Below, piece by piece: positions 1 through 38,204 of a DNA stretch of 38,204 nucleotides. The stretch lies in the IMG/VR virus record IMGVR_UViG_3300034106_001695, positions 1 through 38,204 of that record; one strand, given 5' to 3'. Made by a program: the position numbers and the translations under genes. The notes below the pieces were generated by a model that did no database searches, was not told the origin of the DNA, and worked only from the letters and a program-made list of their open reading frames with translations. The DNA comes from a virus. The number at the start of each line of letters is the position of its first letter. Position 1 is the first letter of the stretch.

Positions 1-100
1 AGGTAGTTGAGCGGGAGTACATGATGCAGATGTATTCAGCCGGAAAGCTCGAAGGCATAAAAGAAGGTCCGCAAACAGCTAACGAATATTTTACCGAGAC
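1..100. repeat. Terminal overlap, left arm (matches 35128-35227)
   Basis: These first 100 bases are identical by eye to 35128-35227. Together with the longer match of 814-3484 to 35534-38204 this shows that the window runs once around a circular or circularly permuted genome and re-enters its own start. The match breaks at 101, where this copy carries an insert that the right-hand copy lacks. Confidence 0.95.
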
Positions 101-113
101 TTATGGCAACTAA
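3..113 (+). CDS. AVEWL-family small phage protein, 5'-truncated by the window edge
   Basis: This is the 3' part of the gene seen complete at 35025-35240. The reading frame enters at base 3 and ends with TAA at 111-113. The last residues differ from the complete copy (ending T-Y-G-N rather than T-F-N-S) because the insert starting at 101 replaces the original 3' end. It overlaps the next start (ATG at 103) by 11 nt. Function is unknown; the family is common in Bacteroidota phages next to replication and recombination genes. Confidence 0.75.
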   Translation, partial: VVEREYMMQMYSAGKLEGIKEGPQTANEYFTETYGN

Positions 114-516
114 GACAGTAACTAAGACAGCCGTTCAATGGCTGATTGAATCTATTAATAAAAAAATAGATTTGACCACATTGAAATATTGGGACGAAAT
201 TGATGCAATAGTTCAACGAGCCAAGGAAGTTGAAAAAGAGCAGATTGTTGAGGCGTTCAATGATGGGGCTCTTGACGGTATTCAATTGGGAGAGCAGTAT
301 TATAAATTCACTTACAATAAATAACATCATGAACGGATACATTAAAATAAAAACAATCAATCTTGAGCCTGATAAATTTGGCAAGCACATCAAGATTACA
401 AGAGTTGGCATCTATGATGAGAATGATAAATGGATTAAGTGGCTTCCATTAAACCAACAATTGGCTGACTTTTTTGAACAGCAAAAAATAAATGTCCTAA
501 TCAATCCTGATGTCCT
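101..516 (+). other. Variable two-gene insert present only in the left copy of the terminal overlap
   Basis: Positions 101-516 (416 nt) stand where the right copy has only 9 nt (35228-35236). The insert is more AT-rich than its flanks and carries two small genes, 103-324 and 329-520. The first is a divergent paralogue of the gene it abuts (35025-35240). Seventeen single-base differences follow downstream between 537 and 813, crowded nearest the insert, after which the copies are identical. I read this as two strains in the sampled population differing by a small cargo insertion spread by homologous recombination. An assembly chimera is a less likely alternative. Confidence 0.8.
103..324 (+). 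CDS. AVEWL-family small protein (paralogue of 35025-35240)
   Basis: A 73-residue protein of unknown function. It shares the family layout with the 71-residue product of 35025-35240: an N-terminal T-A-V-x-W-L segment, a central A-K-x-V-E-x-E motif (residues about 39-47), a G-x-L-x-G-I-x-x-G segment and an aromatic tail ending near Y-Y/F. This is a small, mostly helical family seen repeatedly in Bacteroidota phages. The start ATG at 103 overlaps the end of the upstream gene by 11 nt, suggesting translational coupling. It lies in the polymorphic insert and is absent from the right-hand copy of the locus, so it is dispensable in some members of the population. Confidence 0.75.
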   Translation: MATKTVTKTAVQWLIESINKKIDLTTLKYWDEIDAIVQRAKEVEKEQIVEAFNDGALDGIQLGEQYYKFTYNK

Positions 517-520
517 ATGA
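329..520 (+). CDS. Hypothetical protein, 63 aa, insert cargo
   Basis: I choose the ATG at 329 because it directly follows the stop of 103-324 (ending at 324); an upstream start at 230 would overlap that gene by about 95 nt. The protein begins M-N-G-Y-I-K-I-K, has alternating hydrophobic residues in the first half that suggest a beta hairpin, and a charged, Asn/Gln-rich end. The stop overlaps the next start (ATGA at 517-520). I do not recognise the family. It belongs to the polymorphic insert and is absent from the right-hand copy. Confidence 0.65.
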   Translation: MNGYIKIKTINLEPDKFGKHIKITRVGIYDENDKWIKWLPLNQQLADFFEQQKINVLINPDVL

Positions 521-1107
521 CACGCGAAGAATACATAACCTACCCAGCAGTAAGCGCAAGCCGAATCAAACGGCACTACACCGGAGACATCAGCTACGCT
601 AAGGCATCGCTTAACTATGGCAAGGACTTCCACTACTCACTACTTGAATGCGAGTATGAGACAATGGGCGATGCAGTGCGCAACACCTACGATGCAATTC
701 ACCAGGTCGAGCTGCTTGGTGAGCTGTTCGACAAAAGCGAAAAGGAGCGCATCGTTGTCACTGAGCTGACCTTCGGGGATAAGACCGTGCTCGCCAAGGG
801 TGCGATGGATATCTGCTGGGATGACATGAAGATTATCGCTGATGTGAAGACCACAACGGCGAAGAACCTGCAAGCCTTTGCCGATGACATGATAAAGCAC
901 TTCAACCATGTGCAGGCTGTGTGGTACTGCATGCTGATGGGCTGGGATCCGAAAGACTTCTACTACATCGGAGTGCCTCCAAAGGTTAAGAAGTCGGGGC
1001 AGTTCAAAGACCTCTACCTCTACCGCCATAACCAGCAAGAGCTTGACCATGCTTACGAGCTAATCGCAGGCTTTCTCAATCAATTCGATGGCAACTATGG
1101 GAAGTAA
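517..1107 (+). CDS. PD-(D/E)XK exonuclease (RecE/Cas4-like, DUF3799 type)
   Basis: A 196-residue nuclease, probably the 5'-3' resection enzyme of a phage recombination system acting on dsDNA ends. Seen in the sequence: A-K-G-x-x-D98, then I-A-D109-V-K111-T-T about ten residues later, which is the D...D/E-x-K active site, followed by Q133-x3-Y137, the QxxxY motif of RecB-like nucleases. The spacing fits PDDEXK proteins of the exodeoxyribonuclease VIII-like family. In the circular map the upstream neighbours are the putative ssDNA-binding protein (33687) and a coiled-coil protein (34398), consistent with a recombination module. It has 17 base differences from its right-hand copy (35237-35827), nearly all synonymous (T8N and V12I are the only changes seen). 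Confidence 0.85.
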   Translation: MTREEYITYPAVSASRIKRHYTGDISYAKASLNYGKDFHYSLLECEYETMGDAVRNTYDAIHQVELLGELFDKSEKERIVVTELTFGDKTVLAKGAMDICWDDMKIIADVKTTTAKNLQAFADDMIKHFNHVQAVWYCMLMGWDPKDFYYIGVPPKVKKSGQFKDLYLYRHNQQELDHAYELIAGFLNQFDGNYGK

Positions 1108-1717
1108 GCGACACGGCCAGCTGGTCATCGATTACGTTGTTGAGTATTACTCGCACACCAAGACGGCAGAGATCGCCAAAGTGCTTGGCATATCTGAGTC
1201 GAGCGTTTATAACATCGCATTCAGGCTCGGGCTAAAGAAAGCGCCTGAGTACCTCAGCGAAATACATGGCGCAATGGTGAAAATGGCTGGCAAAAGACAC
1301 CGATTCACTAAAGGCCACACCCCTTGGAACAAAGGCGTGAAAGGCAACAACAATGCACCCGAGTATACGCACTTTAAGACTGGCCACATTCCAGCAAATT
1401 ACAAGCCTGTGGGCTGGACTCGCATCGATGCTGAAGGCTATCACTGGACAAAGGTTAAGGAAGGGCTCAATGGCTGGGTGATGACTCACCGGCTTGCCTG
1501 GGAAATCGAGAACGGACCAATCCCGAAAGGCAAATTCCTTCGCTTCATCGATGGCAATAAGGAGAACTGGCAAATCGAGAACCTCATGCTGGTAGATCGC
1601 GAAAGCAACATGCGACTTAATACCATACATCGCTATCCTGAAGAGCTCAAATCAACAATGAAAATTCTTTCTAAACTAAAACGTAAACTAAAAAATCATG
1701 GCAAGGAACAAGATTGA
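1088..1717 (+). CDS. HNH endonuclease with N-terminal helix-turn-helix
   Basis: A 209-residue freestanding endonuclease. Residues about 24-50 (T-K-T-A-E-I-A-K-V-L-G-I-S-E-S-S-V) form a helix-turn-helix that would bind DNA. Residues 72-102 contain K-G-H-T-P-W-N-K-G, a segment often seen in these phage HNH proteins. The nuclease core is H134-R-L-A-W, G-P-I-P-K-G, then F153-I-D155-G-N-K-E-N160 and N165-L. In many relatives the residue at 153 is His; Phe here may mean a subfamily variant or weakened catalysis. It overlaps both neighbours by exactly 20 nt, as expected of a homing-type gene inserted at a gene junction. The start at 1088 is chosen for length; ATG at 1097 is an alternative. Confidence 0.8.
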   Translation: MATMGSKRHGQLVIDYVVEYYSHTKTAEIAKVLGISESSVYNIAFRLGLKKAPEYLSEIHGAMVKMAGKRHRFTKGHTPWNKGVKGNNNAPEYTHFKTGHIPANYKPVGWTRIDAEGYHWTKVKEGLNGWVMTHRLAWEIENGPIPKGKFLRFIDGNKENWQIENLMLVDRESNMRLNTIHRYPEELKSTMKILSKLKRKLKNHGKEQD

Positions 1718-1910
1718 ACACCTAAGAGACCACCTATTCGAAGTAATCGAAATGCTTAAAGATGGTGACATGGAAATCGAAAAGGCGAAAGCCATCACTG
1801 ATGTGGCTCAGACCATAATCAACTCTGCAAAGGTTGAGGTAGATTTCATCAAGACAGTACACGGCAATGGCTCGGACTTTATACCAATGGATAAAAGACT
1901 GGACGCATGA
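1698..1910 (+). CDS. Conserved small helical phage protein, 70 aa
   Basis: The product starts M-A-R-N-K-I-E-x-L-R-D-H-L-F and continues with I-E-K-A-K-A-I-x-D-V-A-Q-x-I-I-N-S-A-K-V-E-V-D-F, a pattern I recognise from small proteins of unknown function in many phages and prophages, often near replication or regulatory genes. The predicted fold is two long helices, possibly a dimer. The ATG lies 20 nt inside the HNH gene and the stop overlaps the next start (ATGA at 1907). A regulatory or DNA-associated role is possible but not shown by the sequence. Confidence 0.75.
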   Translation: MARNKIEHLRDHLFEVIEMLKDGDMEIEKAKAITDVAQTIINSAKVEVDFIKTVHGNGSDFIPMDKRLDA

Positions 1911-2092
1911 AAAAGCAGACGCGTTTATTAGTTCAATTTGTTAGCGATGATCCATTTGGAGGAAAGCTTGAAGAGCTGGGTATATTTAAAACACCTGACG
2001 AAGCTTTTAAGGCTGCTATGCCTTACATGAATGATATCACAGTAAAGGCGATTTTTATAAATCATGACAAACAGTGGTTTCAAATATCATGA
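1907..2092 (+). CDS. Hypothetical protein, 61 aa
   Basis: A small protein of unknown family, starting in an ATGA overlap with the previous stop and ending in an ATGA overlap with the helicase start at 2089. The pattern (basic start, a beta-like L-L-V-Q-F-V segment, a helix around F-K-T-P-D-E-A-F-K-A-A, then I-F-I-N-H-D-x-x-W-F) suggests a compact alpha/beta fold. Base composition is more AT-rich than the flanking genes, hinting at a separate origin. Confidence 0.6.
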   Translation: MKKQTRLLVQFVSDDPFGGKLEELGIFKTPDEAFKAAMPYMNDITVKAIFINHDKQWFQIS

Positions 2093-3645
2093 CCCTTCGC
2101 CCCTACCAGGAGACTTTCATCAATAACATCGCAGCGAGCCTGCGCAGCAATCGCAAGGTGGTTGCGCAGCTCGCAACTGGTGGAGGCAAAACCGTGTGCT
2201 TTTCTGCGATTTGCGACCGCTTCACAGCACGCAATAGCACGGACATCCTAATCCTTGTGCATCGTGAAGAACTGCTCCATCAAGCTTCACGCGCCATCGC
2301 ATTACCCACACAAGCCGTGACCGCTGGCATGAAGTCAATCCCACATGCTCGAGTTTATGTGGCAATGGTTGAGACTGCTTATAAACGGCTTGACAAGTTC
2401 ACCAACATCGGGCTGGTCATTGTCGATGAGGTGCATATCGGCAATTTCACAAAGGTCATCGATCACTTCACATCTCAGTATATCATTGGCTTTACAGCAA
2501 CGCCATTGGCAGCTCGCAAGACCAATCCATTGCTCAACTACTTTGATGACATTGTATGCGGCATCGATATCCCCGACCTGATTGAGCAGGGCTATTTATG
2601 CCCTGAGCTGACCTACTCAGCCGCTCAGATTGTCGACAGGGCAAAGCTAAAGATGAAAGCTGGCGAGTTCGATGCAGCCCAGATGGCAGCTGCATTCAAA
2701 GCACCTAAGTACATCGAGACAACAGTGAACGCCTACAAGGCACACTCACTTGGCCGCAAGACCATAATCTTCAATTGCAATGTCGAGCACTCGATGGCCG
2801 TCAATGCAGCATTCCAAGCCGCTGGCTTCAACTCGCGCCATCTCGATGCTGGCTCGCCTGATCGCTCTGAGGTGCTCCAATGGTTCGCCAACACACCCGA
2901 TGCAATTCTCAACAACATCGGCATCGCAACCACCGGATTCGACCAGCCAGACATCGAGACCGTCATAGTAAACAAGGCCACAGCATCAATGCCGCTTTGG
3001 CTTCAGATGTGCGGGCGTGGGGCAAGGCCGCATAATGTCAAGCTCGCATTCACCATCATAGACCTTGGAGGGAACTGCATGACACATGGCCTCTGGTCAT
3101 CGCCTCGCAATTGGAGCGATATCTTCCACAACCCGAAGAAGCCAGGCAATGGAGTAGCTCCAGTTAGGCAGTGCCCAAAGTGCGGAGCTCTGCATCACAC
3201 CGCAAAGAAGGTATGCGATGCGCAATATATCGGAATGTTGTTTCCTTGCGGCCATGTCTTCCCAGTAATCAAGCCAAAGGACGAGGCCATCGAGAAGTTT
3301 ATCCAAGTCAGCAAGGCTATTGATGTAAAAAAACTAATCGAATCAAAGGCACATTATAAAACATACCACTCTCTGCATGTATTAGTTGAGCAAGTTTTTA
3401 ACAGTGCTAAAAAGATAACTCCCGAAATCACCCCCATAATTCAAGAAAAAATTCATGAACTTGCAAGGCTCTGGTGCAAAGAGCATAAAAAGCGATTTGA
3501 TGCCTATCACCGGAATTTTGTAGACGATAAATTACACACACTATGCTCATCTCACAATACAAAAACATCTATGACAGTCAAGACATTGACATCGAACTCA
3601 GCTCCTTTCTGGAAGGAGTCAGAACCGGAAAATGGCAGGACATAG
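2089..3645 (+). CDS. SF2 DEAD/DEAH-like DNA helicase
   Basis: A 518-residue ATP-dependent helicase of superfamily 2. Motifs in order: L-R-P-Y-Q at the start (Q-motif region), Walker A A-T-G-G-G-K34-T35, DEVH box at 113-116 (Walker B), T-A-T at 136-138 (motif III) and Q-M-C-G-R-G-A-R at 306-313 (motif VI). C362, C365, C376 and C387 could bind zinc. I start at ATG 2089 (M-T-L-R-P-Y-Q), which overlaps the previous stop, not at 2074. The 3' part from about 3325 is AT-rich, and the last 34 codons or so overlap the primase start by 103 nt and look low-complexity. Likely role: origin opening or replication-fork/recombination helicase next to the primase. Confidence 0.88.
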   Translation: MTLRPYQETFINNIAASLRSNRKVVAQLATGGGKTVCFSAICDRFTARNSTDILILVHREELLHQASRAIALPTQAVTAGMKSIPHARVYVAMVETAYKRLDKFTNIGLVIVDEVHIGNFTKVIDHFTSQYIIGFTATPLAARKTNPLLNYFDDIVCGIDIPDLIEQGYLCPELTYSAAQIVDRAKLKMKAGEFDAAQMAAAFKAPKYIETTVNAYKAHSLGRKTIIFNCNVEHSMAVNAAFQAAGFNSRHLDAGSPDRSEVLQWFANTPDAILNNIGIATTGFDQPDIETVIVNKATASMPLWLQMCGRGARPHNVKLAFTIIDLGGNCMTHGLWSSPRNWSDIFHNPKKPGNGVAPVRQCPKCGALHHTAKKVCDAQYIGMLFPCGHVFPVIKPKDEAIEKFIQVSKAIDVKKLIESKAHYKTYHSLHVLVEQVFNSAKKITPEITPIIQEKIHELARLWCKEHKKRFDAYHRNFVDDKLHTLCSSHNTKTSMTVKTLTSNSAPFWKESEPENGRT

Positions 3646-7341: not shown

Positions 7342-7482
7342 ATGCCACTATTCCAAGGAGACAGTCAAGAGGTCATTTCGATGAACATCCGCAAGCTAAT
7401 AGGCGAAGGATATCCACCTCAGCAAGCGGCTGCAATCGCACTGGCTGAGGCTGAGAAGTACCGCAAAGCACGCAGAAGGTAA
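7342..7482 (+). CDS. Conserved small phage protein (MPLFQG... family), 46 aa
   Basis: ATG at 7342, TAA at 7480-7482. The product M-P-L-F-Q-G-x-S-x-E-V-I-S-x-N-I, then G-x-P-P-Q-Q-A-A-A-I-A-L-A, ends basic. This pattern (start MPLFxG, later PQxQAVAIAL) is a very common tiny phage and prophage protein of unknown function, often near packaging or structural genes. It is well supported by the motif despite its size. Confidence 0.8.
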   Translation: MPLFQGDSQEVISMNIRKLIGEGYPPQQAAAIALAEAEKYRKARRR

Positions 7483-7499
7483 ACAACGACAAAACAGCG

Positions 7500-7817
7500 A
7501 TGCCAAAGCCGGAAAACATAGAGCCGCATAAGTTCAAGAAAGGGCAGACAGGCAACCCTAATGGGAGACCGCGTAAGCTGCCAGAACTCAGCAAGCTAAT
7601 GGCTGACATCTTGGGGGATGAGAAGAACGGACTGAGCACAGCGGAGCGCATCCTTAAGGCGATTGAGGCCAAGGCATTACGTGGCGATATAAAGGCAGCT
7701 GAGATGCTTCTCGACCGAGGCTACGGCAAGCCTAAGCAGACCAACGAGACCACGCTCAAGACTACCGAGCCGCTTGTGATTATAAGAACAGTTGAAAAAG
7801 ACAAAGGCAATGAATGA
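7500..7817 (+). CDS. Small-terminase-like protein (DUF5681 type)
   Basis: A 105-residue basic protein with K-F-K-K-G-Q-T-G-N-P-N-G-R-P-R-K near residues 11-26, the hallmark of DUF5681-type phage proteins that usually sit directly before the large terminase. The rest is helical (A-E-R-I-L-K-A-I-E-A-K-A-L-R-G-D-I-K-A-A-E-M-L-L-D-R-G-Y-G-K-P). A role in DNA recognition for packaging is inferred from the N-terminal motif and the gene order. The HNH gene starts 8 nt before its end, and so now separates it from the terminase. Confidence 0.7.
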   Translation: MPKPENIEPHKFKKGQTGNPNGRPRKLPELSKLMADILGDEKNGLSTAERILKAIEAKALRGDIKAAEMLLDRGYGKPKQTNETTLKTTEPLVIIRTVEKDKGNE

Positions 7818-8346
7818 AATTTGGAAAGCATTTAACGCAGAAGCTGAGGTTTCAAACTTTGGCAACGTAAGAACAATTGACCGAAAGGTTAAATATTGTG
7901 ATAAGTACATCAATGTAAAAGGCCGTACATTAAAGCCAGCAGCAGATAAAAAAGGATATTTAAGAGTAGCCTTCAAGCATGAAGGAAAGCATACTACATT
8001 CAAAGTTCATCGATTAGTTGCTCAACTATTTGTAAGCAACGATTTGAATAAGCCAATGGTTAACCACAAGGACGGCAACAAAAAGAACAACAATTTTCAA
8101 AACCTTGAATGGATGACTAACGCGGAGAATGTTCAGCATGCGTTTGACAACGGCTTGATAAAAGCTAAGCGCCTGCATGAAAGCCCGAGAAGCAAGCAAA
8201 CAAAAGAGGGCATTGAGTTCATGTATTTTCTTAGGGGTTTAGGCATGAGCTATAATTCAATTGCAAACGAAGTTGGAGTTTCTAAAAGCGTTGCAATGAA
8301 AAACATTAAAAACTATGAACTTTACGCTAACGCCAACACAAACTAA
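7810..8346 (+). CDS. NUMOD4/HNH homing endonuclease inserted upstream of terL
   Basis: A 178-residue homing-type endonuclease. Residues 1-50 are a NUMOD4-like DNA-binding module (I-W-K-x-F, E-V-S-N-F-G-N-V-R-T-I). The HNH core is H67-R-L-V-A-Q-L-F, V-N-H86-K-D88-G-N-K-K-N-N94, N98-L-E-W-M-T-N-A-E-N, with all key residues intact. Residues 145-168 (S-Y-N-S-I-A-N-E-V-G-V-S-K-S-V) form a C-terminal helix-turn-helix of the NUMOD1 type. ATG at 7810 overlaps the upstream stop by 8 nt, and the gene runs 32 nt past the terminase start (8315). It is clearly more AT-rich than its neighbours, a sign of recent arrival. I infer it is one half of a mobile cassette with the 39-nt gap in terL. Confidence 0.9.
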   Translation: MNEIWKAFNAEAEVSNFGNVRTIDRKVKYCDKYINVKGRTLKPAADKKGYLRVAFKHEGKHTTFKVHRLVAQLFVSNDLNKPMVNHKDGNKKNNNFQNLEWMTNAENVQHAFDNGLIKAKRLHESPRSKQTKEGIEFMYFLRGLGMSYNSIANEVGVSKSVAMKNIKNYELYANANTN

Positions 8347-9631
8347 AGCCTACGATATGGCTATCAACGAAGACTGCCGAGTTGTGGTTTTCGGTGGTGC
8401 CATACGATAATCGCCCCTGCTGGCAACGGTGGGGGCAAAGTCCCGTGGTGGCAAAACGTATTGGCTGTTGCTAACTCTCAGCTACCTCGCGCTGCAATAC
8501 CCGCGCAGCCGATGGGTGATTATTCGACGCAGCCTGCCCGACCTGAAGCGCACAACCTTCCCGAGCTTCAACTCGATACTTGACGATGGCGTGAATCAGT
8601 ACGTGGAAAGTTGGAACCGCGACACGCAAGTGGTGACATTCATCAATGGCAGTGAGTTGCTGTTCATGGCAGAGAGCTTTGACGATGACAAAGACCTCAA
8701 CCGCTTCAAGGGGCTCGAGGTGAACGGCGCTGGCTTGGATGAAGTTAACGAGCTGCAAGAGCAGACATTCTATAAGGTGCAAGAGCGCATCGGTAGTTGG
8801 AACAAGGCAATAGGCCAGCCGCCGATCGTGTGCCTGGCAACTTGCAACCCGGCCAACAACTGGGTGAAGTCAATCATTTACGAGAGGTACAAGGAGGGCA
8901 CGTTGCCCGAGCGGTGGACATTCATCCCGAGCAAGATTACCGATAACCCGCACATACCCGCTGAATACCTCGAGAGCCTGAAGGAGTTACCGCCCGTGCA
9001 GTACGCCCGATTCGTGGAGGGGGATTGGGATGTGATGGACGATGTGGCGAATCCATTCCTCTATGAGTGGGATGATGCGAAGCACATCGATGACAGCGTG
9101 CAGCTGAACCGCAATATGCCAGTGCACATCAGCGTTGACTTCAACATCAACCCGCTGTGCGCGCTTGTGATGCAGCACGTTGGCAGAGGCGCTGTGGTGG
9201 TGGATGAAATAAAGATTGAGAAGGGCAGCGTTGATGCGTTCTGCGATACTGTGCTTGCGCTCGGCATCCCGATGGGGCTGATACGCATCACAGGCGATGC
9301 GATGGGTAAGGGTGGCACGGTGCAACAGCGAGATAACTCAAGCGCCTACACCATGATAAAGCGGCGGCTCGGTATGAGCGATAGCCAGTTTCTGATTCCG
9401 GCTAACCCAACGCACTACAATAGCCGCATCGATTGCAACGCTGCATTGCGCAAGCTCGACATCCGCGTGAACTCAAAGCGGTGCAAGGGATTCGTGTTCG
9501 ATGCGAAGCAAGTGCAGTGCGATGCCAATGGCAGCATCATAAAGACCAATCGAAAAAACATTGCCGAGCGTGCTGACTTCTTAGATTGTTTTCGTTACTT
9601 TGTCAATGCAATACTAAAGCGATACTTATGA
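8315..9631 (+). CDS. terL: Terminase large subunit, interrupted in the P-loop by a 39-nt untranslated gap
   Basis: Packaging ATPase/nuclease. Starting at ATG 8315, codons 1-31 give the adenine (Q) motif L-T-P-T-Q9 and R-V-V-V-F-G-G-A-I-R31, then an in-frame TAA at 8408. The same frame resumes at 8447 with G-G-K-T-Y-W. Omitting 8408-8446 yields a 425-residue protein with Walker A G28-A-I-R-G-G-K34-T35, Walker B D129-E130, and the RNase H-like nuclease with D262 (V-D-F-N), D315 (G-D-A-M-G) and an Asp about residue 411. Without the first 31 codons the protein would lack the Q motif and first strand. A start at GTG 8429 is the conventional alternative. The ORF after the gap has no other defects, so it is probably a working gene. 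See the bypass element for the mechanism proposed. Confidence 0.88.
8405..8446 (+). other. Candidate translational bypass element in terL (take-off CGA, 39-nt gap, landing CGT)
   Basis: Take-off codon CGA (8405-8407) is followed at once by stop TAA (8408-8410). The gap contains a hairpin: arm 8413-8421 (GCCCCTGCT), loop GGCAAC (8422-8427), arm 8428-8436 (GGTGGGGGC), giving nine pairs, three of them G-T wobbles. The landing codon CGT (8444-8446) is Arg like CGA and both can be read by one tRNA-Arg with inosine in the anticodon. Decoding resumes at GGT. Skipping exactly 39 nt keeps the frame and restores G-A-I-R-G-G-K-T. These are the hallmarks of the 50-nt hop in T4 gene 60: stop after take-off, matched codons, hairpin in the gap, homing endonuclease next door. 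The mechanism itself is inferred. Confidence 0.7.
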
Positions 9632-34397: not shown

Positions 34398-35021
34398 ATG
34401 AACAGTATCGCAAAGATAACAATTCCTATCGAGAAATTGTATCAATCAATAAATTCTACCGAGACATTAAATGCTCAGAGGCTAACGGCTAACATTCAGC
34501 CAATCGAAAGCCCAAACCAATACACCGCCGCATCCAACGCCATCGCTCAGGTTAACGCTGCTGTTAAGGCAATTCAGGATGCGCGTAAGATGGTCACCGG
34601 TCCGCTCGATGCCTACAAGAAAGAACTCATGCGCATAGAGTCAGATGCCACCGAACCTCTCCAGGCTTTCATCGCATCGACCAAAGCTGAGATGCTGAAG
34701 TACACAGCCGAGCTTAATCGCAAGCAGCAAGAAGAACAAAAGCGCATACAGGAGCAATCCCGCTCGATGGCCGACTTGACCGATCAGCTCGCTGATGTAA
34801 GCATCCAGCACAGCCACATCAAAGGCATTCGCACAATCCGCCGCACTCGCATCACTGGCGAAGTGGATTGGATGAAGGTGCTCAGTGTCCTGTTCGGTTC
34901 GGGAATGTACAAGCCCGAAGACCTCACGCAGAACTTGCTCAAGGCAATGGAAAAATGCGGCGTTACCGCCATCGCTGGCATCGAGATTTACGAAGAACAA
35001 ATACAAACCATAACACGATAA
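34398..35021 (+). CDS. Coiled-coil phage protein of the recombination module, 207 aa
   Basis: Long coiled coil about residues 50-125 (Q-V-N-A-A-V-K-A-I-Q-D-A-R-K, E-L-N-R-K-Q-Q-E-E-Q-K-R-I-Q-E-Q). The end has R-R-T-R-I-T-G-E-V-D-W-M-K-V-L-S and C-G-V-T-A-I-A-G-I-E-I-Y, a C-terminal module with the I/V-P-G-I/V-x-V/I-Y-E ending seen in phage proteins next to ssDNA-annealing genes. I think it is a recombination accessory factor. It ends 3 nt before the next ATG. Confidence 0.6.
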   Translation: MNSIAKITIPIEKLYQSINSTETLNAQRLTANIQPIESPNQYTAASNAIAQVNAAVKAIQDARKMVTGPLDAYKKELMRIESDATEPLQAFIASTKAEMLKYTAELNRKQQEEQKRIQEQSRSMADLTDQLADVSIQHSHIKGIRTIRRTRITGEVDWMKVLSVLFGSGMYKPEDLTQNLLKAMEKCGVTAIAGIEIYEEQIQTITR

Positions 35022-35024
35022 AAC

Positions 35025-35240
35025 ATGCCAACTAAAATGACAGCAGTTGAATGGCTGCGACTAACCATTCAAAACAAGCTCGCCTCCGAAATGGGGCCTT
35101 TCTTTGCAGAGGCATTCGAAACCGCCAAGGTAGTTGAGCGGGAGTACATGATGCAGATGTATTCAGCCGGAAAGCTCGAAGGCATAAAAGAAGGTCCGCA
35201 AACAGCTAACGAATATTTTACCGAGACATTCAACTCATGA
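35025..35240 (+). CDS. AVEWL-family small protein, 71 aa (complete copy of 3-113)
   Basis: Begins M-P-T-K-M-T-A-V-E-W-L-R-L, contains A-K-V-V-E-R-E-Y-M-M-Q-M-Y-S-A-G-K-L-E-G-I-K-E-G and ends E-Y-F-T-E-T-F-N-S. It is a family of small Bacteroidota phage proteins of unknown function. Its stop overlaps the exonuclease start (ATGA). Where the left copy has the two-gene insert, here the two genes are directly joined, so this is likely the ancestral arrangement. Confidence 0.75.
   Translation: MPTKMTAVEWLRLTIQNKLASEMGPFFAEAFETAKVVEREYMMQMYSAGKLEGIKEGPQTANEYFTETFNS
35128..35227. repeat. Terminal overlap, right arm (matches 1-100)
   Basis: Identical by eye to the first 100 bases. Match ends where the 101-516 insert begins in the left copy. 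Confidence 0.95.
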
Positions 35241-35827
35241 CACGCGAAGAATACATCAACTACCCAGCGATAAGCGCAAGCCGCATCAAGCGGCACTACA
35301 CCGGAGACATCAGCTATGCTAAGGCATCGCTTAACTACGGCAAGGATTTTCATTACTCACTGCTTGAATGCGAGTATGAGACAATGGGCGATGCAGTGCG
35401 CAACACCTACGATGCAATTCACCAGGTCGAGTTGCTTGGTGAGCTGTTCGACAAAAGCGAGAAGGAGCGCATCGTTGTCACTGAGCTTACCTTCGGGGAT
35501 AAGACCGTGCTCGCCAAAGGTGCGATGGATATATGCTGGGATGACATGAAGATTATCGCTGATGTGAAGACCACAACGGCGAAGAACCTGCAAGCCTTTG
35601 CCGATGACATGATAAAGCACTTCAACCATGTGCAGGCTGTGTGGTACTGCATGCTGATGGGCTGGGATCCGAAAGACTTCTACTACATCGGAGTGCCTCC
35701 AAAGGTTAAGAAGTCGGGGCAGTTCAAAGACCTCTACCTCTACCGCCATAACCAGCAAGAGCTTGACCATGCTTACGAGCTAATCGCAGGCTTTCTCAAT
35801 CAATTCGATGGCAACTATGGGAAGTAA
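35237..35827 (+). CDS. PD-(D/E)XK exonuclease, second reading of 517-1107
   Basis: Same 196-residue nuclease as at 517, with two residue differences (N8 and I12 here, T8 and V12 there) and 15 silent base changes, all before 35534. Catalytic residues (D98, D109, K111, Q133) are the same. This copy follows the AVEWL gene directly without the insert. I take it to be a strain variant of the same locus, not a second gene. Confidence 0.85.
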   Translation: MTREEYINYPAISASRIKRHYTGDISYAKASLNYGKDFHYSLLECEYETMGDAVRNTYDAIHQVELLGELFDKSEKERIVVTELTFGDKTVLAKGAMDICWDDMKIIADVKTTTAKNLQAFADDMIKHFNHVQAVWYCMLMGWDPKDFYYIGVPPKVKKSGQFKDLYLYRHNQQELDHAYELIAGFLNQFDGNYGK

Positions 35828-36437
35828 GCGACACGGCCAGCTGGTCATCGATTACGTTGTTGAGTATTACTCGCACACCAAGACGGCAGAGATCGCCAAA
35901 GTGCTTGGCATATCTGAGTCGAGCGTTTATAACATCGCATTCAGGCTCGGGCTAAAGAAAGCGCCTGAGTACCTCAGCGAAATACATGGCGCAATGGTGA
36001 AAATGGCTGGCAAAAGACACCGATTCACTAAAGGCCACACCCCTTGGAACAAAGGCGTGAAAGGCAACAACAATGCACCCGAGTATACGCACTTTAAGAC
36101 TGGCCACATTCCAGCAAATTACAAGCCTGTGGGCTGGACTCGCATCGATGCTGAAGGCTATCACTGGACAAAGGTTAAGGAAGGGCTCAATGGCTGGGTG
36201 ATGACTCACCGGCTTGCCTGGGAAATCGAGAACGGACCAATCCCGAAAGGCAAATTCCTTCGCTTCATCGATGGCAATAAGGAGAACTGGCAAATCGAGA
36301 ACCTCATGCTGGTAGATCGCGAAAGCAACATGCGACTTAATACCATACATCGCTATCCTGAAGAGCTCAAATCAACAATGAAAATTCTTTCTAAACTAAA
36401 ACGTAAACTAAAAAATCATGGCAAGGAACAAGATTGA
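35808..36437 (+). CDS. HNH endonuclease, second reading of 1088-1717
   Basis: Identical 209-residue protein to that at 1088-1717: N-terminal helix-turn-helix, then HNH core with H134-R, D155-G and N165-L, Phe at 153. See that entry for details. The same 20-nt overlaps with both neighbours are present. Confidence 0.8.
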   Translation: MATMGSKRHGQLVIDYVVEYYSHTKTAEIAKVLGISESSVYNIAFRLGLKKAPEYLSEIHGAMVKMAGKRHRFTKGHTPWNKGVKGNNNAPEYTHFKTGHIPANYKPVGWTRIDAEGYHWTKVKEGLNGWVMTHRLAWEIENGPIPKGKFLRFIDGNKENWQIENLMLVDRESNMRLNTIHRYPEELKSTMKILSKLKRKLKNHGKEQD

Positions 36438-36630
36438 ACACCTAAGAGACCACCTATTCGAAGTAATCGAAATGCTTAAAGATGGTGACATGGAAATCGA
36501 AAAGGCGAAAGCCATCACTGATGTGGCTCAGACCATAATCAACTCTGCAAAGGTTGAGGTAGATTTCATCAAGACAGTACACGGCAATGGCTCGGACTTT
36601 ATACCAATGGATAAAAGACTGGACGCATGA
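36418..36630 (+). CDS. Conserved small helical phage protein, second reading of 1698-1910
   Basis: Identical to the 70-residue product at 1698-1910, in the same arrangement between the HNH gene and the 61-residue gene. Confidence 0.75.
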   Translation: MARNKIEHLRDHLFEVIEMLKDGDMEIEKAKAITDVAQTIINSAKVEVDFIKTVHGNGSDFIPMDKRLDA

Positions 36631-36812
36631 AAAAGCAGACGCGTTTATTAGTTCAATTTGTTAGCGATGATCCATTTGGAGGAAAGCTTGAAGAGCTGGG
36701 TATATTTAAAACACCTGACGAAGCTTTTAAGGCTGCTATGCCTTACATGAATGATATCACAGTAAAGGCGATTTTTATAAATCATGACAAACAGTGGTTT
36801 CAAATATCATGA
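36627..36812 (+). CDS. Hypothetical protein, second reading of 1907-2092
   Basis: Identical to the 61-residue product at 1907-2092, with the same ATGA overlaps on each side. Confidence 0.6.
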   Translation: MKKQTRLLVQFVSDDPFGGKLEELGIFKTPDEAFKAAMPYMNDITVKAIFINHDKQWFQIS

Positions 36813-38204
36813 CCCTTCGCCCCTACCAGGAGACTTTCATCAATAACATCGCAGCGAGCCTGCGCAGCAATCGCAAGGTGGTTGCGCAGCTCGCAACTGG
36901 TGGAGGCAAAACCGTGTGCTTTTCTGCGATTTGCGACCGCTTCACAGCACGCAATAGCACGGACATCCTAATCCTTGTGCATCGTGAAGAACTGCTCCAT
37001 CAAGCTTCACGCGCCATCGCATTACCCACACAAGCCGTGACCGCTGGCATGAAGTCAATCCCACATGCTCGAGTTTATGTGGCAATGGTTGAGACTGCTT
37101 ATAAACGGCTTGACAAGTTCACCAACATCGGGCTGGTCATTGTCGATGAGGTGCATATCGGCAATTTCACAAAGGTCATCGATCACTTCACATCTCAGTA
37201 TATCATTGGCTTTACAGCAACGCCATTGGCAGCTCGCAAGACCAATCCATTGCTCAACTACTTTGATGACATTGTATGCGGCATCGATATCCCCGACCTG
37301 ATTGAGCAGGGCTATTTATGCCCTGAGCTGACCTACTCAGCCGCTCAGATTGTCGACAGGGCAAAGCTAAAGATGAAAGCTGGCGAGTTCGATGCAGCCC
37401 AGATGGCAGCTGCATTCAAAGCACCTAAGTACATCGAGACAACAGTGAACGCCTACAAGGCACACTCACTTGGCCGCAAGACCATAATCTTCAATTGCAA
37501 TGTCGAGCACTCGATGGCCGTCAATGCAGCATTCCAAGCCGCTGGCTTCAACTCGCGCCATCTCGATGCTGGCTCGCCTGATCGCTCTGAGGTGCTCCAA
37601 TGGTTCGCCAACACACCCGATGCAATTCTCAACAACATCGGCATCGCAACCACCGGATTCGACCAGCCAGACATCGAGACCGTCATAGTAAACAAGGCCA
37701 CAGCATCAATGCCGCTTTGGCTTCAGATGTGCGGGCGTGGGGCAAGGCCGCATAATGTCAAGCTCGCATTCACCATCATAGACCTTGGAGGGAACTGCAT
37801 GACACATGGCCTCTGGTCATCGCCTCGCAATTGGAGCGATATCTTCCACAACCCGAAGAAGCCAGGCAATGGAGTAGCTCCAGTTAGGCAGTGCCCAAAG
37901 TGCGGAGCTCTGCATCACACCGCAAAGAAGGTATGCGATGCGCAATATATCGGAATGTTGTTTCCTTGCGGCCATGTCTTCCCAGTAATCAAGCCAAAGG
38001 ACGAGGCCATCGAGAAGTTTATCCAAGTCAGCAAGGCTATTGATGTAAAAAAACTAATCGAATCAAAGGCACATTATAAAACATACCACTCTCTGCATGT
38101 ATTAGTTGAGCAAGTTTTTAACAGTGCTAAAAAGATAACTCCCGAAATCACCCCCATAATTCAAGAAAAAATTCATGAACTTGCAAGGCTCTGGTGCAAA
38201 GAGC
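36809..38204 (+). CDS. SF2 helicase, second reading of 2089-3645, cut by the window end
   Basis: The first 465 codons of the helicase, with Walker A (A-T-G-G-G-K-T), DEVH, T-A-T, Q-x-x-G-R-G-A-R and the Cys cluster all present. The reading frame stays open to the last base because the window ends here. It is the same gene as 2089-3645. Confidence 0.85.
   Translation, partial: MTLRPYQETFINNIAASLRSNRKVVAQLATGGGKTVCFSAICDRFTARNSTDILILVHREELLHQASRAIALPTQAVTAGMKSIPHARVYVAMVETAYKRLDKFTNIGLVIVDEVHIGNFTKVIDHFTSQYIIGFTATPLAARKTNPLLNYFDDIVCGIDIPDLIEQGYLCPELTYSAAQIVDRAKLKMKAGEFDAAQMAAAFKAPKYIETTVNAYKAHSLGRKTIIFNCNVEHSMAVNAAFQAAGFNSRHLDAGSPDRSEVLQWFANTPDAILNNIGIATTGFDQPDIETVIVNKATASMPLWLQMCGRGARPHNVKLAFTIIDLGGNCMTHGLWSSPRNWSDIFHNPKKPGNGVAPVRQCPKCGALHHTAKKVCDAQYIGMLFPCGHVFPVIKPKDEAIEKFIQVSKAIDVKKLIESKAHYKTYHSLHVLVEQVFNSAKKITPEITPIIQEKIHELARLWCKE

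Follow-up and report, generated by a model that had tools for sequence, protein, structure and literature searches.

A probable mobile translational bypassing element in the terminase P-loop codons of environmental phages

The gene for the large terminase subunit (terL) of an IMG/VR virus is interrupted within the codons of its P-loop by a short structured insert. We interpret this insert as a mobile programmed translational bypassing element, similar to that of T4 gene 60 and spread by homing, and assign this reading a probability of about 87% in the absence of protein, RNA, or reporter data. The gene lies in a stretch of 38,204 nucleotides (record IMGVR_UViG_3300034106_001695, positions 1 to 38,204), which was analyzed as a whole and is referred to here as the window. 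Sequence comparisons establish the insert, its site, the frames involved, two conserved RNA structures, constraint on the coding sequence, linkage to an HNH endonuclease gene, and repeated transfer.

Within the window, terL starts at ATG 8315, and its first part yields the product MNFTLTPTQTKAYDMAINEDCRVVVFGGAIR before a TAA codon at 8408-8410 is reached (Table 1). A sequence-only reading of this DNA had described VVFGGAIR ending on CGA, followed by TAA, a gap, CGT, and GGKTYW, and this description is borne out. Its count of a 39-nt hop holds as well, if measured from take-off to landing codon as is done for the 50 nt of T4, while the gap itself comprises 36 nt. The proposal that leaving out the gap gives an intact P-loop, and the expectation of uninterrupted TerL homologues, both found support in 106 gapless homologues that read GG[AGS]IRGGKT, which is the product expected of a CGA-to-CGN hop; the gapless product of the window, FGGAIRGGKTYW, corresponds to the sequence of these proteins. 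With 31 and 394 amino acids from its two parts, the window protein reaches 425 amino acids, the length of an uninterrupted homologue (L012). A mechanically called open reading frame starts at GTG 8429, within what would be the Walker A loop, and on the bypass reading this frame is an annotation artefact. No solved structure of the window terminase was found by sequence.

Table 1. Positions in the window of the terminase locus and of the putative bypassing signals.
Feature	Position	Strand	Basis or remark
DUF5681 gene, in the position of the terminase small subunit	7500..7817	+	Pfam PF18932, E=1e-15; upstream of terL also in HNH-free loci
Homing endonuclease gene, NUMOD4 + HNH_3	7810..8346	+	Pfam NUMOD4 7e-9, HNH_3 3e-9
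terL N-terminal coding part, 31 codons, end GGAIR	8315..8407	+	Open from ATG 8315; dN/dS about 0.17 (insert-bearing genes)
5' stem-loop, with CG of the take-off codon as the last bases of its 3' arm	8353..8406	+	Fold; family conservation
Putative take-off codon CGA (Arg31)	8405..8407	+	CGA here in all interrupted genes, also via searches not demanding CGA
Putatively bypassed gap, 36 nt, TAA first	8408..8443	+	Absent from 106 homologues; 36/37/38 nt in 44 contexts
Gap hairpin, 10 bp, GCAA (GNRA) tetraloop	8413..8436	+	Fold; covariation
Putative landing codon CGT (Arg)	8444..8446	+	GGT 8447 would be the next codon decoded
terL C-terminal coding part, 394 codons + stop	8447..9631	+	Terminase_6N, E=6e-9 (Pfam)

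Relatives were gathered from IMG/VR by searches with the C-terminal part of terL, and duplicates were removed. Together with searches for the insert pattern and for two spacing patterns that did not demand a hairpin, these unbiased terL searches resulted in 44 distinct terL contexts with an insert at the same site, compared to the 106 uninterrupted terL genes. It should be noted that the regular expression behind the final list of 44 demands ATACGA, whereas the terL searches did not; an earlier classification had asked only for the presence of GG[AGS]IRGGKT, and the interrupted family members found in this way all had ATACGA at this place, too. The one other sequence without GG[AGS]IRGGKT (L207) is 30% identical, uninterrupted, and has a different P-loop. 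In every interrupted gene, the insert follows ATA CGA and precedes CGN GGN GGN AAR. Its length is 36 nt (19 contexts), 37 nt (1), or 38 nt (24), so that all three frames occur with the same product. The sequence-only reading had treated an assembly error as possible, but 44 distinct contexts on many independent contigs with the insert at one site rule against it, and the interruption of terL is confirmed as a real observation at the level of DNA sequence.

The codons flanking the gap are matched in all 44 contexts, with CGA before it and CGN after it (CGA in 19, CGT in 14, and CGC in 11), and they are thus synonymous but not always identical. The codon next to the take-off codon is more variable (TGG, 25; TAA, 14; GGT, 2; GGC, TAG, and TGT, 1 each). 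A stop after the take-off codon, which had been proposed as part of the signal, is therefore present in the window but is not a conserved feature, with TAA or TAG in only 15 of 44 contexts as opposed to TGG in 25. A zero-frame stop occurs somewhere in all gaps listed in our comparison of N-terminal parts and gaps. In most of the 38-nt cases, the downstream frame has a TAA right in front of the landing codon, which leaves no start codon for the C-terminal part upstream of the P-loop. The earlier argument that tRNA-Arg pairs poorly with CGA and better with CGU does not generalize, given the 19 landing codons that are CGA and the GCT-to-GCA pair of another terminase described below; I-A wobble was dropped as a general driver of the hop, since the landing codon is often CGA. 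Elements in other genes were sought with a pattern free of ATA, which gave just three extra contigs, apparently by chance.

Both coding parts of insert-bearing genes are under constraint, with pN/pS values of 0.23 in the N-terminal part and 0.17 over the first 200 codons of the C-terminal part. As far as examined, the C-terminal part is open in 42 of the 44 contexts. The two broken ones, L071 with one in-frame stop codon and L121 with an apparent deletion and change of frame, are probably isolated errors, likely from assembly.

The gap contains a hairpin, as the sequence-only reading had noted, although with a different geometry: instead of 9 bp and a 6-nt loop, its arms (8413-8422 and 8427-8436) form 10 bp closed by GCAA. 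Across the family, the covarying hairpin has 9-10 base pairs and a GNRA loop (GAAA or GCAA), and it begins 5-6 nt after the take-off codon, or 8-9 nt when counted from the first base of CGA. In the helix, 98.9% of cells are paired, and changes on both sides occurred at 4 of 9 pairs; 4 pairs are invariant, and 4 of the remaining 5 show compensatory changes. The types observed at pair 6 include UA, GU, CG, UG, and GC, and those at pair 9 include AU, GC, CG, and GU.

A second structure lies upstream, within the coding sequence of terL. A common 5' stem-loop is formed in 25 of 26 distinct insert-bearing N-terminal parts, and 94% of its cells are paired in insert-bearing compared to 59% in insert-free genes. 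The mean minimum free energy of the 66-nt N-terminal part is -23.8 kcal/mol with and -14.0 kcal/mol without the insert, and synonymous shuffling yields mean z values of -3.06 and +0.51, respectively, without overlap between the groups. The value for the window itself (z = -1.7) is modest as a single value. Taking both helices jointly (29 distinct sequences), 95.7% of cells are paired compared to 42-54% with the 3' partners slid, and 66 cells changed on both sides compared to 20 in shuffles. According to the folding comparisons, genes with the insert are under strong selection for the 5' stem-loop, which insert-free genes lack; the relatedness of the sequences inflates the significance of such structure statistics. 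In one insert-bearing gene, L029, the N-terminal part shares its ancestry with those of insert-free relatives (about 80% identical) and the common stem is missing; it folds a stem-loop of its own at -23.4, whereas those relatives mostly range from about -16 to -19, with L031 (-20.2) and L022 (-11.7) as exceptions. No extra structure was found in the 66 nt past the landing codon (z of +0.36 compared to +0.05), and a comparison of N-terminal parts for a nascent-peptide signal, made by eye only, revealed nothing resembling KKYK that is specific to insert-bearing genes.

The insert is linked to a homing endonuclease gene with NUMOD4 and HNH_3 domains, which sits between the small-subunit-like gene and terL and overlaps the start of the latter. 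This gene and the 5' stem-loop, the features that make the parallel to T4 strong, had been missed in the sequence-only reading. Where the HNH gene is absent, the DUF5681 gene adjoins terL. Counting only loci that extend at least 900 nt upstream, the window among them, an HNH gene precedes terL in 21 of 41 with the insert but in 0 of 103 without it (Fisher's exact test, 3e-14, uncorrected for relatedness). On a tree of the C-terminal part of terL, the state of the insert requires 20 changes, at least 16 of which are forced by well supported branches. Furthermore, the window and its nearest insert-free gene are 96% identical in the 300 nt downstream but only 55% in the 75 nt upstream, where the window is identical to another carrier. 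Such a pattern would be left behind by homing events in which the flank upstream of the insert was co-converted. Judged by these comparisons, the N-terminal region tracks the insert and the rest tracks the host gene, i.e., the element is a mobile cassette. Close relatives of the HNH protein (54-100% identical) are all encoded at the terL locus, except for L227, where the contig ends before terL; the next relatives reach at most 45% over most of their length, apart from a shorter segment of L235 at 53%. One HNH protein (L069:2374-2898) combines a C-terminal half of the window type with an N-terminal half of the L054 type, which suggests domain exchange among these endonucleases.

A covariance model of both structures was then run over the neighborhoods of the remote HNH relatives, and it matched L238 as well as the identical L254 and L257, in each case just downstream of the HNH gene. 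The terminase of L238 belongs to another family (Terminase_3) and is unrelated to window terL. Its N-terminal part ends with GGT GGT GCT GCT, followed by a 37-nt gap with a hairpin and then by GCA GGA GGT GGT AAA TCT. The terL of Flavobacterium phage 11b, which is 72.8% identical, is gapless and reads YGGAAGGGKS, the product expected from a GCT-to-GCA hop in L238. The 5' stem-loop of L238 has a z value of -3.6, compared to +1.0 and +0.6 for the uninterrupted genes of 11b and phi10:1. We therefore infer, in agreement with phage 11b, that L238 carries the same architecture in an unrelated terminase, with a putative Ala-to-Ala hop. In L254 (2513-3195) and L257, the HNH gene is accompanied by a 5' stem-loop (z of -3.4), ATACGA-TGA, and a 39-nt gap with a GUAA hairpin, but the landing place is AGT (followed by GGT GGA AAA) without an Arg codon, so that the rule of matched codons is poorly met. 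A third bypass element is likely here, although its landing codon is not matched, and we leave the case open. In L237 (2495-3160), an HNH gene lies directly upstream of a terL that is 62% identical to that of L254, and the P-loop of this terL has the sequence ATACGA-C-AGC-GGCGGTAAA, shifted out of frame by one nucleotide, which may reflect a gap of very small size, a relic, or a sequence error. Because this relative reads ATACGA-C-AGC, the native P-loop of the L254 family is unclear.

On the bypass reading, the hop, the order of its steps, and the target of the endonuclease are inferred. The ribosome would translate the 31 codons up to CGA, where it would meet the gap hairpin near the A site and the mRNA entry, and the hairpin may impede decoding of the codon after take-off; if so, a stop at this position would be helpful but not required. 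Peptidyl-tRNA-Arg would release CGA, and the ribosome would slide 39 nt without decoding, while the emerging 5' stem-loop may refold behind it and help its forward movement. The tRNA would then re-pair with the synonymous CGT just past the hairpin, and decoding would resume at GGT to give the Walker A motif GAIRGGKT; the presence of a synonymous codon on the far side of the insert would follow from this need for re-pairing. The insert could persist, since terL would be tolerably preserved and the site of the adjacent HNH endonuclease broken, provided that the endonuclease cleaves insert-free terL, which is assumed here. Homing would carry the endonuclease gene, the N-terminal part of terL, and the insert jointly into phages that have no insert. 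The sequence-only reading had also arrived at a bypass, and although the hop remains experimentally unproved, this explanation is supported in that it predicts the sequence of the uninterrupted homologues exactly and accounts for the occurrence of gaps in all three frames, for the structure within the gap, and for the selection acting on either coding part.

The main rival is removal at the RNA level, where a very small intron or the hairpin would be excised and the transcript religated before translation. The same protein product and the same conserved structures would be expected, and DNA alone cannot exclude it. However, Rfam gave no match in positions 7400-9000 of the window at E<=1, group I and II introns included, and gaps of just 36-38 nt are missing an intron core. 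Moreover, the flanking codons are synonymous, yet often non-identical, in two unrelated terminases (CGA with CGT or CGC; GCT with GCA). Such codons are required by the re-pairing of one tRNA but not by splicing, which argues against RNA removal, and the layout of two hairpins at the take-off codon fits T4 gene 60. We thus regard RNA removal as unlikely. Even less credence can be given to two separate proteins, with termination after GGAIR and re-initiation at or near GTG 8429. While the window does have this in-frame GTG (giving MGAKSRGGKT), from which the mechanical frame starts, and most other 36-nt cases have an in-frame start as well, no start lies between the TAA abutting the landing codon and the P-loop in most 38-nt relatives, and the 36-nt cases L098 and L099 are also devoid of one. 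Re-initiation furthermore leaves the 5' stem-loop, the constraint on the N-terminal part, and the exact homologous sequence unexplained.

A stop codon and shifted frames within an essential gene could also point to a pseudogene or an assembly artefact, but the 44 distinct contexts, the 42 open C-terminal parts, the dN/dS of about 0.17 in the N-terminal part, and the covarying RNA structures render this explanation hardly tenable. The same verdict applies to read-through or frameshifting, by which the gap would be translated and residues added to the P-loop. For the 36-nt class, only one in-frame stop would have to be read; the three gap lengths, however, would demand three different events, in most 38-nt cases a TAA at the landing site shuts the downstream frame, and about 13 residues would enter the Walker A loop.

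Among known systems, T4 gene 60 shares with the terL element a short non-coding gap, matched codons, a 5' stem-loop, a hairpin, and an HNH gene, mobA, just upstream (PMC5009743, PMC11194080, PMC3014915; T4 record). It has likewise been proposed to be a mobile cassette whose gap protects against an endonuclease, namely a nuclease that spread with the gap (PMC5009743), and refolding behind the ribosome is the role ascribed to its 5' stem-loop (PMC11194080, PMC5009743). Hairpins at 11-12 nt have been shown to block A-site binding, and the hairpin of T4 itself was seen in the A site (PMC7282821); at 8-9 nt from the first base of the P-site codon, hairpins of the window type would be slightly nearer than this. 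There are differences, too: the interrupted gene encodes a topoisomerase in T4 but the P-loop of a terminase ATPase here, Gly codons are used there and Arg (or Ala) codons here, and the gap before the landing codon measures 47 nt in T4 compared to 36-38 nt. The T4 hairpin contains the take-off codon, whereas that of terL starts 5-6 nt after it, and the stop after take-off, a stimulator in T4 rather than the defining act, is not conserved in the terL inserts. In the same 66-nt test, T4 gene 60 as a control gave a z value of only -0.6, so that the signal of the terL 5' stem-loop is stronger, while no counterpart was found for the nascent-peptide (peptides compared by eye) and 3' stem-loop signals of T4. 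Finally, T4 is one case, whereas the terL element has dozens of carriers and repeated transfer. With the hop inferred, we consider the terL element best described, by analogy, as working like that of T4 gene 60, as a mobile and much commoner variant.

The byp elements of Magnusiomyces capitatus mitochondria are also short inserts in coding sequences that are skipped by the ribosome, but these 81 inserts belong to yeast mitochondria and seem not to depend on mRNA context (PMC5009743), whereas the terL element occupies one site and shows elaborate conserved structures, HNH linkage, and a bacterial host. That a bypass in a terminase would be new, as the sequence-only reading had supposed, needs correction, since one was proposed for Streptomyces phage Hau3; it is, however, of another kind, in that its gap is much shorter, is linked to a UUA codon, and is considered possibly regulatory, and the review mentions no homing endonuclease cassette (PMC5009743). 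A 29-nt hop has been reported for a Prevotella loescheii adhesin, in the phylum of the likely host, but this is a single report without follow-up, and the review mentions no mobile element (PMC5009743).

The closest insert-bearing phages are uncultured, and named phages gave no DNA match to window positions 8300-8500. Nearest relatives of the primase-like protein of the window occur in phages of Flavobacteriia, so that the host probably belongs to the Bacteroidota. A search of host genomes returned remote terminase relatives only, and the covariance model, applied to 395 Bacteroidota genomes to look for elements in other genes, found nothing, a weak result without a positive control there. No tRNA genes were found in the window. 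Its ends repeat (1-3484 and 34721-38204, offset 34720); they are identical from about position 1000 but increasingly differ nearer to position 1, as would be seen if the assembly had brought together two strains or the edge of a recombination event. Within these repeated ends, another HNH_3 protein is encoded (1088-1717 and 35808-36437), with a weak match resembling sigma-70 region 4 that is under the curated cut-off.

To our knowledge, a single proven gene has for decades been the basis of programmed bypassing of a long gap in phages. We found no earlier report of the present element in the open-access literature, with subscription papers and preprints largely uncovered. It appears likely that widespread mobile elements in essential phage genes, over which ribosomes are made to jump without splicing, combine a minimal bypass signal of about 40 nt with a 5' stem-loop, are spread by several NUMOD4/HNH endonucleases, and occupy Walker A codons of terminases in at least two unrelated families. 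If this is true, the annotation of some terminase genes as truncated or as starting at the P-loop is likely wrong, and the natural variant family would, through its covariation, its variable A-site and landing codons, and its independent origins, reveal the essential parts of the signal. One could also test whether homing endonucleases generally find shelter in bypass elements as an alternative to introns and inteins, and T4 gene 60 would count as one remnant of a general strategy.
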